NCBI GenBank assembly: GCA_002070455.1 | Contig: MWDG01000005.1 | Coordinates: 1 to 64,000, forward strand | DNA length: 64,000 bases | Direction: 5' to 3' | DNA from: Deltaproteobacteria bacterium ADurb.Bin151 | GTDB lineage: Bacteria; Desulfobacterota; Syntrophia; Syntrophales; Smithellaceae | Shown here: positions 18,091-26,408 of the stretch, piece after piece | How positions within the stretch are numbered: position 1 is the first letter of the stretch | Layout of the letters: every line of letters begins with the position of its first letter | Program-made: the position numbers and the translations under genes | Notes under the pieces: model-generated | What the model saw: only the letters and a program-made list of their open reading frames with translations | Told to the model about the DNA's origin: nothing | Databases searched by the model: none

Positions 18091-18510
18091 ATGTTGTTTC
18101 TTCTGACCAGGTGGCTGGTGATCACCGTGGCCATTTTAGTGGCGGCCACCATCCTTCGCAAGGGGATTCACGTGGATTCTCTGACCACGGCCATTATTGC
18201 AGCTGCAATTCTGGGAATCATCAACGCTTTTTTGCGTCCGGTTCTGCTGATCCTGACATTGCCGCTGACCATTTTGACGCTGGGTGTTTTTACATTTGTC
18301 CTCAATGCATTTATGCTGCTTCTGGTAGCTTATTTTGTTCCGGGGCTGGAGATTGACAGTTTTTCCTGGGCCTTTCTGGGAGCCCTGATTATCAGTATCG
18401 TCAGTTGGATCGCCAACCGCTTTATCAATAAATCAGCGCCGGATACCGTCAATCGCCAAAAACCGGACTTCATCGATATGAAGCAGGGGGATGACGGGAA
18501 ATGGCGCTAG
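18091..18510 (+). CDS. Phage-holin-4_2-type (PF04020-like) inner membrane protein
   Basis: 139 residues from the ATG at 18091 (AAGGA upstream); an ATG at 18061 lacks a ribosome site. Four hydrophobic segments ([70 protein letters not shown]) give the pattern of this small membrane family. Despite the name, chromosomal members are not phage lysis genes. It overlaps the start of mutS by 10 bp. Confidence 0.78.
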
Positions 18511-21128
18511 ACGCAACGTTCAATCTAACCCCAGCGATGAAGCAGTACATCGAAATCAAGAAAAAATATCCGGATTGTATCTTGTTGTACCGGATGGGTG
18601 ATTTCTACGAGATGTTTTTTGAAGATGCCCTGACGGCGGCTCCTGTTCTGGAGATCACGCTCACCTCCCGCAACAAGTCTAAAGAAGACGCGGTCCCGCT
18701 TTGCGGCTTTCCGTACCATGCCGCTTCTGCATACATAACAAAACTCGTGGAGAAAGGATTCAAGGTCGCTGTCTGCGAACAGGTCGAAGACCCCAAAAAT
18801 GCCAGGGGGATCGTCAAACGAGAGGTCATCCGGGTCATTACACCCGGTCTGATTCTGGATGAGGAGAACCTCAAATCCGGCGAAAACAATTACCTGGCCT
18901 GCGTTGCGCTGGTACAGCAAACGCTGGGACTGGCTTTTCTCGATCTGTCCACGGGGGAATTTCAAATCGGCGAGTTTGCCGGTCGCGAACGGCTGCTGGC
19001 TGCTGTCGGAGGTCTGGATTTCAAGGAATTGCTGGTCAGCCGTACATTTTCTGACCCGGTTTTGATCAAAATGCTGGAGGCGCAAATGCCTGCCGGCCGC
19101 GTAAATGCTATTGATGGAACCTCTTTTGCACCGGGATGGTCTGATGAAATTCTGGAGAGGGAACTCTCCTTGCAGGTTTTGGATCAATCCGGGATTAAAA
19201 GCAGGCCGGCGGCCAAATTTGCCGCCGCCGTCATCTTGCACTACGTTAATTCCACGCAAATGGTTCGTGCCGCGCACATTTCTGAAATCCGTTGGTACGC
19301 GCCGGAAAATTATCTGGTCCTGGACGATGCCGCCCGCCGGAATCTGGAAATATTTTCAACCATCCAGGACAATACCCGTGCCGGTTCTCTTTTTTCCATG
19401 ATCAATGAAACTCTCACTCCGATGGGCACGAGGCGCCTGCGATGGTGGATGGGTTACCCGCTGGTAGATCCCGAAAAAATCCGTGCCCGGCTCGCAGCCG
19501 TGGCGGAAATCAGGGATAACCACATTGTGCGGTCGGATTTGCGAAAAGCTCTTTCACAGGTTTATGATCTGGAAAGACTGGCCGGACGTGTCGCGCTCAG
19601 GGTCGCGACGCCGCGGGATCTGATTGCACTGAAATTGTCGCTTGCCGTTTTGCCCGAGCTGCAATCCATGCTTGTAGATTTCACCGCCCCCGCCCTGTTG
19701 TCGATTCGCAGGGAGATCAGGGATATGTCCGCTTTGGTGGATCTACTTTCCCGGGCCATTGTTCCTGATCCTCCGTTGCGCATCCAGGAGGGAGGATTTA
19801 TCGCTCAAGGTTTTGATGAAGGGCTTGACCAACTGCGTTTGATCAGCCGCGACGGGAAAAAATGGATTGCGTCGCTTGAAGCAAAAGAAAGACAGGCTAC
19901 GGGCATCAATACCCTCAAGATCGGGTTTAACAATGTTTTCGGCTATTATATTGAAGTCACCAAGGCCAATGCCGGTTCAGTGCCGGAATCGTATGTGCGC
20001 AAGCAGACACTGGTCAATGCCGAGCGCTATATCAATCAGGAGCTGAAAGAATTTGAACAGACGGTTCTGAATGCTGAAGAGAAAATACATGAACGCGAAT
20101 ATGAAATCTTCAATCAGCTGCGTGACGACGTAATGCCTTATATTCCGGAGATTCAGTATAACGCTTATCGCGTGGCCGAGCTTGACGCGTTTTGCTCGCT
20201 TGCTGAAGTGGCCGAAAAGCATTCCTTTGTCTGCCCCGAAATTGACGAAGAAGACCTGATCGATATTCAAGACGGACGTCACCCGGTGGTTGAGGCGGCC
20301 TTGAAAAAAGAGGGGTTTGTGCCCAATGACACGCTGATGGACCTGCAGAGCAACCGCCTGCTGGTGATCACCGGTCCCAATATGGCGGGCAAATCCACTT
20401 ATATCCGCCAGGTGGCTTTAATTGTGCTTTTGGCGCAGATGGGCAGCTTTGTTCCGGCTTCACATGCGCGGATCGGCATCGTCGATAAAATTTTCACCCG
20501 CATCGGTGCATCGGACAACCTGATGAAAGGGCAGAGCACATTTATGGTGGAAATGATGGAAACAGCCCGGATTCTGACGGATGCGACGTCCCGGAGCCTC
20601 GTGATCCTGGATGAAGTGGGCCGGGGAACTTCGACGTTTGACGGATTGAGCATTGCCTGGGCGGTGGCCGAATACATTCATGATTTTGGCGGTGTCGGCA
20701 TGCGGACCCTTTTTGCAACACACTATCACCAGTTGACAGATCTGGCGGCCTCAAAAGAAGGCGTGAAAAATTACAACATCGCCGTGAAGGAATGGGGCGA
20801 AAAAATCATTTTTTTGCGTAAGATCATGCAAGGCGGGACAAGCCGAAGCTATGGCATCGAAGTGGCCCGGATCGCCGGGGTTCCATCCGAGGTGATTTTA
20901 CGCGCCAAAGAAATCCTGCGCAATCTGGAAAAGGGAGAGTTCGATGAGATCGGCATGCCGCGAATCGCACGGGGGAAAAACACTGCGAAGTGTGGAAATC
21001 CACAGTTGAGTCTTTTTGCGCAAAGCGAGGATGCGGTTCTTGAAGAGCTTCGGCAAATGGATACTTCTTCCATGACGCCGCTTGACGCGCTCAACACACT
21101 CCATCATCTCAAAGAAAGATTAACCTGA
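18501..21128 (+). CDS. mutS: DNA mismatch repair protein MutS
   Basis: 875 residues, full length. N-terminal mismatch-binding domain with [14 protein letters not shown] (the Phe of the F-x-E wedge), core and clamp regions, then the ATPase domain with GPNMAGKST (Walker A) and [15 protein letters not shown] (Walker B and signature). Recognises base mismatches and recruits MutL. Start ATG lies within the end of the membrane-protein gene. It converges with the PilB-like gene 14 bp away, with no separate terminator visible. Confidence 0.97.
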
Positions 21129-21141
21129 CCTTATCGTTGTT

Positions 21142-23802
21142 CTAAACGCCTTTTCTCACGCAGGTCAGTTTTACCTGCCTTAGATCGCTGAATCCAGAGA
21201 GAACTTTGGAAATACCTTCTTGTAAAAGAGTGGTCATGCCGTTGGCGGCGGCTGCCTGATAAATGGATTCGATGCTTTCTTTGCGCCGGATCATACGTTT
21301 GATTTCCCGGGTGAAAATAAAAATCTCTGAGACGCACATTCGGCCGGCGTATCCGGTTTGACCACACACGTCACACCCTCTGGGACGGAAAAGATAAAAA
21401 TGGTTCGAATAGGGGATATTGAGTTTTTCAAAATTCTCTTTCCCGTACAATTGAGCAATTTCTTCATATTCTTCCTGGCCGGGGTGGTATTTTTCCTTGC
21501 ATTTCGGGCAGAGTGTTTTCATTAGCCTCTGTTCCATGATGGACAACATCGCATCGGCAAAAATTAAACGGCTGATGCCCATATCCAGAAACTTTTCCAT
21601 GGCATCGATGATGTGATCAGCCCATAGCGTGCTGATCACAAGATGTCTTTTCAGGGAGGCTTCCATGCATATTCCGGCCGTTTCCGGATCACAAATCCGG
21701 CTTGCTGCAATGATGTCCGGATCGGCATTCAAAAATGAACGCAGCACGGCAGGATAATCAAGGCCTTTTCGAGGATCAACGGGAACCTGCCTCAAACCGT
21801 CTTGTGTAATCTCGATAGACTCTTCCGCCGTCCAGATTTTTTTCTCCGGCGTATTGATGTTGTCAAGGCAGGCATGAAGAGTTGTGTTCATGCCTGCTCC
21901 CGGTGGTCCAACAATGAAAAACATGCCCCTGGGCTGCCGCAGAATATTCACCAGTTCTTTGTAATGATTTTCCGACAGCCCAAGCAGTTCCAGGGGGATT
22001 TTTTTCGCTTTCGCCGAAATGTGAATCACCAGGTCTTCGGGTCCGGTGTGTGTCGGAATAAAGGTCGCCCGCATGTGGATGGCGTTTCCCGATGGTCGTG
22101 TTAATGTCAGATTTCCCTGCTGGATGGCGGGCTGCCGGGTTTGGCTGAGATTAGCCAATTGTTTCACCTGATCAGTGAACTTTGCATATTCTTCAGCGGT
22201 GATCGTCTTGTTCTTCAAACACTGTCCGTCAATGCGGACGCGTAAATAAATGGTTTTGCCGGCAGCGTCCGGTTCAAAATGAATGTCAGAGCCCCGGCGG
22301 TTGTATGCGTCATAAATAATGTCGGTGAACAACGGAAGAATGCGTGATTGAGGAACGGTCGCAACGGCTATAGCGCTTTCTGCGGTTGTGGTGATTGTGA
22401 CGGTTGCAGGTTCCTCAGGGATGTCATGATCCATATCCTTTGGAAATAGATCCCGAAGGAATATGGCTGCGGCTTGCAGTGGCCCATCGGATGGCCTCAC
22501 GTCTGACTGATACCGGTTTTGAAAAGCAGTTGCAGGAGCTGTTTCAGGCGTCAAAGCCTCGGTATGCGTGATGCCGGATAGAAAAGAGTCGCCATTTCGT
22601 GGACCGTTTTCGGATTCGGGAACGACGATGCTTTCCGGTTCAATAGGGGGCTCCGGCTTCGCGATGGTTTCAGGACGGGTCAAAATGCCTGGATCAGGAT
22701 CGCGTGGATGCTCTGCAAAAAGTCGCTGAACGGCCGGTTCTGCCGACAGTTCTTCGTCTTTTTCTAAATAGTGAAGATGAATCAGCCTCAGGATATCACT
22801 GGACAGGGCAACCTCGTAAACGACGGAGTCCGTTTCCAGCATTTTTTCGATTTCCCGCCTTTTGGCAAGGTTTGACGGGTCTTCCACGAGGACATGGATT
22901 TTTCCTTTCACTACGTTCAGAGGAAACCAGAGCATATCGATGAGTGCGGACTTGTCAAGGCTGTAAAGGAGATCATTGATGACAGGCAGGTCATCGCTGT
23001 AAGCCCGGAAGGGACAGGAGAAGTGGTCAGACAGTGCCGCCCCGATATATTCTTTTGAAATATTGTAGCGTTCCATTAAAATCGTTGCCACATCTTCTTT
23101 TGTGGCAAAAGATGCCTTTATTGCATAATTCATTTGCTCTGGAGTGACGATTCCATCATGAATCAGCTTTTCATATCTCTCTCCGCGTTTGTGACCGGCT
23201 TGCTCAAAGTCCAGCATCATAAAAAATGCTTTGGCCAGACAGCTTTCGATTTCATCTAGAAAGATGTGCGAGTAATCATCAATGGTTTCGCCGTTTTTTT
23301 TGTTCATGATTTCCATGACGCCTAGGATGTTGCCGTCATACAGGATGGGGCTGGCGATAATCTGACCGGTCAGGATTCCGGTTTTTTCATCCAGTGAATC
23401 GTCAAAACGCAGTGCGTCATTAATTCTCCTGATTTCCCTGACATTGTAAGCGTCTGAAACATGGAGCATTTTTTTCTTTCTCGCAACATAACCGGCAAAT
23501 GTTGTGTTATCAATGGGGAGGCGGATTTCTTTTGTTTTTGTGCCGCCGTTCTGCAGTGTGAAAATTTCTTTTTTTGCCTTGTCGACCACATAAATTGTGA
23601 GGACGTAAATATTAAACAGTTTTCGGATATCTTCCTTGATATCAACAATGATTTCCCGAATATTTTCAGCAGAGTTAATACGGCTGGTAATACGCTGGAT
23701 TGACTTGTGAAATTCAAGATTTTTTAACAGTTCCTCAACCTGAGGCGCCTCGGATATTTCTTCCTTCAGCGATTTTTTGATATACGTGCTGGTTTTAGAC
23801 AT
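21142..23802 (-). CDS. GAF-MshEN-PilB/GspE-like protein with degenerate ATPase sites
   Basis: 886 residues from the ATG at 23802 (AAGGA upstream). An N-terminal GAF domain (about 45-200), a MshEN/T2SSE_N-type domain (about 215-350, a family that can bind c-di-GMP), a Pro/Glu-rich linker, and a C-terminal GspE/PilB ATPase fold with its Cys4 metal motif (CPKC and CDVCGQTGYAGR). The Walker A region reads GPPGAGMNTTL near residue 630: the catalytic Lys is Met and the next residue Asn, where the family has GKT/GKS. The Walker B/Glu motif GEIRD is replaced by ASRICD near 695. It probably cannot hydrolyse ATP and may act as a regulator or structural subunit. Confidence 0.85.
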   Translation of the reverse strand: MSKTSTYIKKSLKEEISEAPQVEELLKNLEFHKSIQRITSRINSAENIREIIVDIKEDIRKLFNIYVLTIYVVDKAKKEIFTLQNGGTKTKEIRLPIDNTTFAGYVARKKKMLHVSDAYNVREIRRINDALRFDDSLDEKTGILTGQIIASPILYDGNILGVMEIMNKKNGETIDDYSHIFLDEIESCLAKAFFMMLDFEQAGHKRGERYEKLIHDGIVTPEQMNYAIKASFATKEDVATILMERYNISKEYIGAALSDHFSCPFRAYSDDLPVINDLLYSLDKSALIDMLWFPLNVVKGKIHVLVEDPSNLAKRREIEKMLETDSVVYEVALSSDILRLIHLHYLEKDEELSAEPAVQRLFAEHPRDPDPGILTRPETIAKPEPPIEPESIVVPESENGPRNGDSFLSGITHTEALTPETAPATAFQNRYQSDVRPSDGPLQAAAIFLRDLFPKDMDHDIPEEPATVTITTTAESAIAVATVPQSRILPLFTDIIYDAYNRRGSDIHFEPDAAGKTIYLRVRIDGQCLKNKTITAEEYAKFTDQVKQLANLSQTRQPAIQQGNLTLTRPSGNAIHMRATFIPTHTGPEDLVIHISAKAKKIPLELLGLSENHYKELVNILRQPRGMFFIVGPPGAGMNTTLHACLDNINTPEKKIWTAEESIEITQDGLRQVPVDPRKGLDYPAVLRSFLNADPDIIAASRICDPETAGICMEASLKRHLVISTLWADHIIDAMEKFLDMGISRLIFADAMLSIMEQRLMKTLCPKCKEKYHPGQEEYEEIAQLYGKENFEKLNIPYSNHFYLFRPRGCDVCGQTGYAGRMCVSEIFIFTREIKRMIRRKESIESIYQAAAANGMTTLLQEGISKVLSGFSDLRQVKLTCVRKGV

Positions 23803-23991
23803 CAAGCAGTTCCTTGCCGTCAACTTAAAAAATGATCTCTTTCGGTATTTAGCAAGACGTGTGCCGAAACAGAATAAAATATAATGTTCATGAATAATAA
23901 ATAGTTACGGTGATTAAAAGGGATGAAAACAAAAGGGGCACATCAGGCTGAATGATTCATTTTGACCCCGGAATCTGTTTCTACAGTGAAT

Positions 23992-25344
23992 CTACAGGTT
24001 ATAGGATTTAACTTTTCTTTTCAGCGTAGAAAGGGAAATGCCCAGCGCTTTTGCGGATTGGGAGTAATTTCCATTGAATTTTTTCAGCGCGCGGCTGATG
24101 CAGTTCTTTTCAGTCATTTCAAGCGGCAGTATTTCTTCATCATCCAAAGCGGCCGGAGCGGAATGAGAATAAGGGGTTATATTGTTTTTCAAAAGCAGTG
24201 ATGGTCGCAGCGTCTGTCCCCGCTGGATGATCAGGGATCGTTCAATGACATTTTTCAATTCACGCACGTTGCCCGGCCATTCATATTCCATCAGTTTGCC
24301 CAGTTCCGGGTCGCTTAGTCGGATGCTTGCATCCCGGGACATTTTTCCGATGAAATATTCACAAAGTTTGGGGATATCATTTTTTCTTTCGCGAAGCGGC
24401 GGAATATGGATTCGAATGACGCTGAGACGGTAGTAGAGGTCATTTCGAAATGTTTTTTCCTTGATGGCCTCTTCCAGATCATTGTTGGCGGCGGCGATAA
24501 TACGCACGCTGATCGGTTTGACGGTTTCGCTGCCGATGCGCCTGATTTTTTTCTCTTCCAGAACTCCCAGCAGCTTGGATTGAAGATGGATCGGCATGGA
24601 GCCGATTTCATCCAGCATCAGGGTTCCTCCCTCCGCAAGCTCAAAAATACCCTTGCGTGTGGAACTTGCCCCTGTAAAGGCGCCTTTTTCGGACCCGAAC
24701 AATTCTGCCTCGATTAGATTTTCGGGAAAGGCGGCGCAATTGGCTGTGAGAAATAGTTTTGTCGGCAGATCGCTTTTATAGTGAATGGCTCTTGCCACAA
24801 CATTTTTGCCCGTTCCGGTTTCTCCGGTGATGAGAACAGGTGCGTCGGTGCCAGCCGCAAGATCAATGGTCCGGTTGATTTCATCAAATATTCCGTGACC
24901 GGCGATCAGTTCATGTTCAACGGTGTCTTTCGTGTTCTGGTAGTCCTGGATTTGCTCTGTTTTCTCGAGTTCCTGCGTGCGGAAAGCCTGTTTGACGGTC
25001 AACTCCAGTTCAGCCATTTCAAAGGGCTTGGAAAGATAGTCGTGGGCGCCGACCTTGATGGCTTCGATGGCATTGTTAAAGCTCGGGTAGGCTGTCACGA
25101 AGATGATTTTCGTCTGCTCATTTTGTTTTAAAATGGCGGGGCAAAGCGCTATGCCTTCCGTATCGGGAAGCTTCTGATCGAGAATGACCACATCAATTTT
25201 TGTTTCTTTACAGAGCTTCAGGCCGTCTTTGCCTGTATTGGCCATCAGCACATCTGTTTTTTCATCGGTCAGCAGATCATGCACGGATTCACAGAAAATA
25301 TCATTGTCGTCGATGATCAGGATTCTTCTTTTCACTTTCATCAT
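23992..25344 (-). CDS. NtrC-family sigma-54 response regulator
   Basis: 450 residues. A receiver domain with phospho-acceptor Asp56 (DVVILDQKLP), an AAA+ domain with GETGTGK near 175 and ESELFGSEKGAFTGA-type sequence near 220-240 (the sigma-54 contact loop), a second Walker region (GTLMLDEIGSM), and a C-terminal Fis-type helix-turn-helix (NYSQSAKALGISLSTLKRKV). It should activate sigma-54 promoters when phosphorylated by the partner kinase. Its ATG overlaps the stop of the kinase frame (ATGA), and the PilB-like gene follows. Confidence 0.93.
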   Translation of the reverse strand: MMKVKRRILIIDDNDIFCESVHDLLTDEKTDVLMANTGKDGLKLCKETKIDVVILDQKLPDTEGIALCPAILKQNEQTKIIFVTAYPSFNNAIEAIKVGAHDYLSKPFEMAELELTVKQAFRTQELEKTEQIQDYQNTKDTVEHELIAGHGIFDEINRTIDLAAGTDAPVLITGETGTGKNVVARAIHYKSDLPTKLFLTANCAAFPENLIEAELFGSEKGAFTGASSTRKGIFELAEGGTLMLDEIGSMPIHLQSKLLGVLEEKKIRRIGSETVKPISVRIIAAANNDLEEAIKEKTFRNDLYYRLSVIRIHIPPLRERKNDIPKLCEYFIGKMSRDASIRLSDPELGKLMEYEWPGNVRELKNVIERSLIIQRGQTLRPSLLLKNNITPYSHSAPAALDDEEILPLEMTEKNCISRALKKFNGNYSQSAKALGISLSTLKRKVKSYNL

Positions 25345-26408
25345 GCGTTACGCGTACCTTCGGGAATTAAGATCGTCACACTCGTCCCTTTATCTTTGAT
25401 GCTGTTAATTTCCATGTTTCCCTTCATAAGCGTTACCATTTTCAATGTAATCATCAAACCGAGACCCGTCCCGCGGGTTTTTGTTGTGTAGAAGGGTTTG
25501 AAAAGATTGGCCTGCGCCTCTTTGGACATTCCACAGCCGTTGTCTTCGACAATCATTGCAACCAGGTCTTCCTATTTGATTACCCGGATCGTAATTTTCT
25601 TGTTTTTTTGATCTTCAAGTGCATCCGATGCGTTGGTGATCAAATTCAGCAGAACCTGGTGGAGGAGACGAGGATCCGCACTGATGTTTGTCACATTCAA
25701 ACCGACGATTTTGCTGATTTCAATGCCGGATTGATGAAGATCATTCCGTACCAGCGCGATAAAGCGGGTCAGGAAATCATCGATTTGTACGTCCTGGATT
25801 TCAGGTTTTTCAAAGATGCTGAAACTCTTCAACGCCCTCAAGAGAAACTCGACACGGGATATTTCTGTCATGGCGCGGTCAACATACTTTTCAACCGTTT
25901 CGGGAGAGTATTCGCTGAGGTTTCTTTTCAGGACGCTTAAGGTCATTTTGATGGAATTGATCGGATTGCCCAGTTCATGCCGTATGCCGGAAAACACAAA
26001 GCTGATGTTGTCCATTGAATTGACCGCTTCAGCGATGGACTCCAGGCGGCTTCTTTCCGTGATGTCGCGGATGATGATCCAGATGAAGTTGTCTGCAATC
26101 ATGTAGGGCGTATAGCCCAGCAGGCGGTTTTTAAAGCGCAGTGTATAATTTTTTCCGAAAATTTCTTTTTCGGGTTTGCTGCCGTAGTCTGTCAAGAGCA
26201 AAGACAGAAGATTTCGATAGTCGAGCAAATTCTGTGTTTGCTGAAAAATTTCCACAGCGAATTTATTTTTGAAAATAAGCTCTCTTGTTTTCACATCCAG
26301 AATGACGATGCCCAGATCAATGGTCTCCATGATACTGGCATATAAAGAATTCTCCAGATGATTTTCCGAATGTGCCATATTCAAATTTTCTGTTGCGGCG
26401 TCACGCAT
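25341..26408 (-). pseudogene. PAS-type histidine kinase with an in-frame amber stop
   Basis: A single open frame of about 355 codons is interrupted once, by TAG at 25574-25572 (codon 279). The N-part has a PAS-like region (residues 25-115) and a HisKA H-box, IRHELGNPI with His144, then the N-box NLITNASDALED. The amber follows ITIRVIK, and the same frame resumes with EDLVAMIVEDNGCGMS (G1 box) and GTGLGL (G2 box), ending at the regulator start. Without read-through the ATP-binding lobe is lost, so the kinase is probably inactive. A sequencing error or suppression is possible. The C-terminal piece also has an internal ATG at 25556. Confidence 0.85.

Follow-up and report, generated by a model that had tools for sequence, protein, structure and literature searches.

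The window, which is the whole stretch of 64,000 nucleotides of DNA analysed in this study, carries on its minus strand (21142..23802) an open reading frame for a protein of 886 amino acids related to the PilB/GspE secretion ATPases. This protein, called pseudo-PilB here, was characterized by translation, Pfam searches, AF2 modelling and residue mapping. The convergent neighbour on the plus strand, mutS (18501..21128), is kept at the locus and was used as the dN/dS control. Two regulatory genes lie on the same strand as pseudo-PilB: one for an NtrC-family sigma54-dependent response regulator with REC, Sigma54_activat and Fis-type HTH domains (23992..25344, minus strand), and one for a histidine kinase with PAS-like and HisKA domains (25572..26408, minus strand). 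The kinase frame is truncated by an in-frame TAG at 25572-25574, ahead of the ATP-binding part, which continues in frame to about 25347; the kinase orthologues in G006, G010, G011 and G018 have full-length frames.

Pseudo-PilB consists of a GAF region (residues ~30-200), an MshEN-like region (~205-350), a disordered linker (353-487), and N2D followed by a dead T2SSE domain with a Cys4 site (487-877). The T2SSE (487-877, 240 bits) and MshEN (282-349, 30.7 bits) matches are above the Pfam cut-offs. The GAF match (90-170) reached 17.2 bits and is below its cut-off of 22.4, and GAF is above the cut-off in the closest intact relative (L120). The AF2 model (mean pLDDT 79.6, mostly above 80 within the domains) has confident GAF, MshEN, N2D and ATPase domains, with residues 353-487 disordered. 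The model is in line with the original prediction, made from the DNA alone, that a GAF and an MshEN domain are fused in front of the ATPase. The best PDB matches found by Foldseek were PilF, PilB and EpsE, with E values of 1e-37 to 1e-39 for PilF and PilB. The NCBIfam equivalog scores of the protein are below what is needed for either PilB (281 against 676 bits) or GspE (274 against 630 bits), and the intact GAF relatives are likewise under these cut-offs (473-503 bits).

The original prediction also held that the Walker A lysine had become methionine and that the catalytic glutamate motif was changed, with the Cys4 motif and the fold remaining. Translation gives a Walker A motif of GPPGAGMNTTL from residue 632 (codons at approximately 21890..21910, minus strand) and a Walker B motif of DPDIIAASRICD from residue 694 (codons at approximately 21685..21723, minus strand). 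Both align without gaps with the canonical motifs GPTGSGK[ST]TT and DPDVIMVGE[IM]RD, and the alignment therefore gives the changes Lys638 to Met, Gly701 to Ser and Glu702 to Arg. The glycines of the Walker A loop are still present, the Cys4 metal site (C765, C768, C810, C813) is intact here and in every member with sequence there, and the T2SSE domain and predicted fold are retained. Residues were then mapped onto G. metallireducens PilB (GmPilB) through the PilB-like protein of the same genome, with residue roles taken from PMC5424180. The gamma-phosphate arginine finger R286 corresponds to H594 and the His-box H420 to W727, and both are lost in all six members that could be read. T411 corresponds to K718, and the catalytic E395 to R702, where none of the six members has kept Glu. 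The Asp-box Glu (E357 in GmPilB, a Mg ligand; E664 here) is retained in all six. Based on this mapping, the changes of the arginine finger (to His) and of the His box are losses additional to the lysine and glutamate losses already predicted.

When 132 homologues were compared, the Walker A lysine was kept in 126 and missing in six, all from one genus. Its place is taken by Met in the window protein and G001, Ile in G018 and G010, Leu in G006 and Val in G011. This hydrophobic replacement, Arg594 to His, and the loss of Glu702, His727 and Thr718 are common to all six readable orthologues; the corresponding catalytic residues are each kept by 124-126 of the 126 other homologues. A sequencing error in a single gene was ruled out, as the losses are common to six genomes. 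In a seventh orthologue (G017) the Walker A motif is unreadable because about 344 bp are deleted across residues 602-713. The lysine-less proteins form one clade (SH-aLRT 100) nested within a clade of intact operon-type proteins. The genomes concerned, all draft assemblies in many contigs, represent seven of the 20 species of the genus, and the other 13 genomes have neither pseudo-PilB nor its regulator. A search of 155 genomes from the order and 395 from the phylum gave no more close members above a strict threshold, but this threshold excludes G006 itself and more divergent members could therefore be missed.

The losses fall on the active site much more than elsewhere. At 10 published catalytic contacts, 23% of ancestral residues are kept in the clade; the figure for a further 112 near-invariant positions is 69% (permutation p 0.0003). 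Eight derived residues are common to five or six of the six members. When the window gene was compared with that of G001, NG86 dN/dS was 0.095 in N2D, 0.155 in the ATPase core, 0.18 in MshEN, 0.42 in the linker and 0.20 overall, with 0.093 for the mutS control. NG86 was used since YN00 was unstable for saturated pairs, and deep pairs were given little weight. A neutral simulation at 0.1 substitutions per site produced about seven stops per 886 codons, with no stop-free runs out of 200, whereas the window gene has no stops. The selective loss of catalytic contacts, the low dN/dS and the absence of stops suggest that the active site was lost under continued constraint on the remainder of the protein. 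The sequence comparisons thus indicate that purifying selection is maintained on pseudo-PilB after the loss of its active site. The original prediction left open whether the loss of lysine and glutamate is shared or marks a single decaying gene. Both are gone from all six readable orthologues, and although intact homologues do occur at the same locus in sister genera, the loss is clade-wide and accompanied by purifying selection. The description of a conserved-looking, inactive secretion ATPase is supported on these grounds, with catalytic residues lost in common among orthologues and the predicted fold kept.

A sigma54 -24/-12 promoter, CGGCACACGTCTTGCT (23851..23866, minus strand), lies about 50 bp before the ATG of pseudo-PilB and is followed by an AAGGA ribosome-binding site. 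Further upstream are two tandem enhancer-like dyads, GTCAAAATGA and TTCAGCCTGA, at 14-bp spacing (23940..23968, minus strand), which are a probable regulator binding site. When a sigma54 promoter with at most one mismatch was sought on the coding strand in the gap that separates the regulator from the gene after it, it was present at 16 of 17 loci. Over the 489,552 positions scanned the pattern had 22 matches in total, so that only about six lie elsewhere. The promoter is kept in four of five readable pseudo-PilB loci; the locus scan gave no recognisable sigma54 site before the gene in G006. Dyads of the form KTCA-N3-TGA lie about 75-90 bp further upstream of the promoter. Most loci have them as a tandem pair at 14-bp spacing, and one or both copies are recognisable in the pseudo clade. 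Their position and conservation suggest that the adjacent NtrC-type regulator may bind them.

The same arrangement is found around intact proteins. In three sister genera (g3, g5 and g6) and two further families of the order (f18 and f15) the locus encodes a histidine kinase, an NtrC-type regulator, a REC protein with a Lys/Glu/Ala-rich tail and an intact GAF-MshEN-ATPase, and in some of these it adjoins mutS. The operon of the sister genera, with kinase, NtrC-type regulator, sigma54 promoter, REC/coiled-coil gene and intact GAF-MshEN-ATPase, is the ancestral one. Within the pseudo clade, G006 and G011 retain only a bare receiver of the REC gene, and G000, G010 and G018 lack the gene. The regulator is 76-80% identical, compared to 43-54% for pseudo-PilB outside the window's two closest relatives. 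The tail of the REC protein encoded with the intact ATPase (L121 2494-3822, L120 7830-9476) is long and probably coiled-coil; the protein recalls RomR in outline, and receiver matches in the PDB are generic. In a Nitrospinae assembly (L073 1291-7177), two GAF-ATPase frames, each nearly 1000 amino acids long, lie in tandem.

The genome was searched for a composite pattern of a dyad followed after 70-100 bp by a sigma54 promoter, with the reversed pattern as control. There were four matches compared to none for the control, and one of these is the pseudo-PilB site. Another lies upstream of an operon with genes for REC, DUF4388, roadblock-like and roadblock proteins and an MglA Ras-like GTPase (G000:C1:68416-73320; L170 1417-6321). 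The GTPase matches MglA structures (E 1e-52), as the second roadblock protein does MglB (E 1e-19). The REC of this operon shares 65-79% identity with receivers encoded at the ATPase locus in this family. A similar site precedes the mgl operon in G006, G010, G011 and G018, though it was read by eye and has at least one promoter mismatch and imperfect dyads. Six genomes that have the pseudo-PilB locus also carry the REC, DUF4388 and first roadblock genes, and two that do not have it (G008, G013) lack them; G003 and G016 could not be called because of contig ends. In five genomes the REC-DUF4388-roadblock-roadblock-MglA operon lies downstream of an intact GAF-ATPase. The third composite site is found before a GAF-HD-GYP gene (L168 3136-5327, G000:C38), a possible member of the regulon. 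The fourth, on contig C155, is not followed by any sensible target gene and was taken as a chance match.

A regulatory role for pseudo-PilB, as had been suggested originally, becomes likelier given its sigma54 promoter and its connection with the MglAB operon. However, the part of that suggestion which cast it as a c-di-GMP-responsive switch did not hold up. The c-di-GMP-binding MshEN domain is defined by two (R/K/L)LGxx..G...L...L..Q motifs (PMC11731258), and the window protein has ERYEKLIHDG and DVATILMERY instead. RLG is missing from both motifs in dead and live relatives alike, so sensing of c-di-GMP through MshEN was rejected. With the motif absent, binding of c-di-GMP by pseudo-PilB is unlikely. 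In the broader GAF-MshEN-ATPase family (for example L003, L057 and L085), the sampled MshEN domains are without the RLG c-di-GMP motif despite intact ATPase motifs.

Taken from sequence, the reading that we consider reasonably probable is that pseudo-PilB is a conserved, non-hydrolysing PilB/GspE paralogue that is switched on by a two-component system together with MglAB and tunes type IV pilus extension, whether by competing for a docking site, as an adaptor or as a signal. It would probably regulate pili rather than power them. In the proposed mechanism, the kinase/regulator pair would induce pseudo-PilB along with the MglA/MglB operon bearing the same composite site. The protein may then dock at the cytoplasmic base of the type IV pilus, or partner an active PilB or GAF-ATPase, without ATP hydrolysis. 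Once docked, and gated by a signal, it could set when or where pili extend, either as an adaptor or as a competitor. Candidate partners do exist. The genome encodes a T2SS-type GspE beside a secretin, and a PilC/GspF gene comes after the one for a PilB-like ATPase. PilT-family genes number at least three, and there are two further GAF-ATPase loci that stand alone, one of them cut by a contig end. The most specific version, in which the two-component/sigma54 switch makes a dead PilB with the MglAB genes, and this signal-induced pseudo-motor occupies or bridges the pilus base and so decides where and when the live motor acts, is put forward tentatively, as possible rather than probable.

The original prediction also offered, as one option, a protein that caps or poisons a PilB hexamer. 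Co-assembly into hexamers of PilB or of a GAF-ATPase paralogue, which would then stall, fits the retention of the fold and most structural residues and the fact that the genome also encodes PilB and intact GAF-ATPase paralogues. However, the inter-subunit contacts R286, T411, H420 and partly H413 and R271 are lost, and PilT and PilU apparently form no mixed heterohexamers (PMC6762196), which makes this reading quite improbable. It appears at least as likely that the protein competes for the docking site, acts as an adaptor or signals. The docking competitor or adaptor is favoured over a poison subunit because of precedents from PilB, MglA, PilT/PilU and Acinetobacter baylyi. A Walker A mutant of Myxococcus xanthus PilB, K327A, is a dominant signalling form (PMC5544727); it is likewise a dead, non-hydrolysing motor, but differs in being a single engineered change in PilB itself rather than a natural paralogue. 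MglA and SgmX together recruit PilB to the pole, where MglA licenses it (PMC11580455), and the MglA/MglB polarity module has the same composite promoter site in the genome studied here, with a putative physical link to pseudo-PilB. Pili can still be retracted by PilU when PilT is inactive, which gives an adaptor-motor model (PMC6762196), although PilT and PilU are retraction motors and both naturally have intact motifs. In A. baylyi a PilB inhibitor, CpiA, is made under its own regulator (PMC8213720), and such separate control is also seen with phage PilB inhibitors, but these are unrelated proteins and not motor homologues. The PilB signalling precedent, the composite sites in common with the MglAB operon and the well-conserved GAF region would also fit a protein whose GAF/MshEN part senses a ligand and whose dead ATPase is a scaffold for the MglAB or EPS pathway and does not touch the pilus motor. 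Contacts of the motor type seem to have been retained, judging by the conserved Cys4 site and C-terminal motor surfaces, and we regard this purely signalling role as rather unlikely.

It may also be that the ATPase lost its function after its REC/coiled-coil partner was lost and is slowly on its way out, furthest so in the window's sublineage. The frames of the closest relatives are broken by a 94-bp deletion in G001 (L128 ~1870) and by the deletion in G017 (L129 ~1270), which together with the TAG in the window's kinase points to possible ongoing loss of the system in this sublineage; the changes may be either recent and real or draft-assembly errors. The low identity of pseudo-PilB relative to its regulator and the shortened or missing REC/coiled-coil gene point the same way. 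On the other hand, full-length frames persist in G000, G006, G010, G011 and G018 despite long divergence, dN/dS in the dead ATPase domain is 0.10-0.16, and the simulated stops are absent. The loss is also selective for catalytic sites, with fold, Cys4, promoter and shared derived residues kept. Slow decay is therefore judged improbable. That the protein is an unorthodox yet active ATPase using other residues is hardly credible. The Asp-box Glu and Gly-rich loop are kept, but Lys, Glu, the His-box His and the arginine finger have all been lost, and the residues that replace them are unrelated from member to member.

Compared with the known PilB/GspE structures (GmPilB 5TSG/5TSH, Vibrio cholerae EpsE 1P9R, Thermus thermophilus PilF 5OIU), pseudo-PilB is alike in T2SSE fold, MshEN-like N1 domain, Asp-box Glu and Cys4 site, at 27-30% identity in the best Foldseek matches. 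It differs in the replaced Lys, Glu, arginine finger and His-box His, the extra GAF domain and the long disordered linker. The intact GAF-MshEN-GspE proteins of sister genera (L120-L123, L151-L155) have the same kinase-NtrC-sigma54 locus and domain order at 42-48% identity, but with all motifs intact and the REC/coiled-coil gene between regulator and ATPase. No natural pseudo-PilB/GspE was found in the open-access literature searched. Regulation of pili by a pseudo-ATPase would, if true, be of a kind not found in that literature, where prior evidence for PilB functions beyond hydrolysis comes from laboratory mutants. The annotation of some proteins as GspE/PulE family ATPases should also be read with care, as some are probably not ATPases. 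A natural, selected dead paralogue with a two-component promoter and an MglAB link would offer a means, already at hand, of testing what a motor does without hydrolysis, and a new approach to the licensing of pilus extension.
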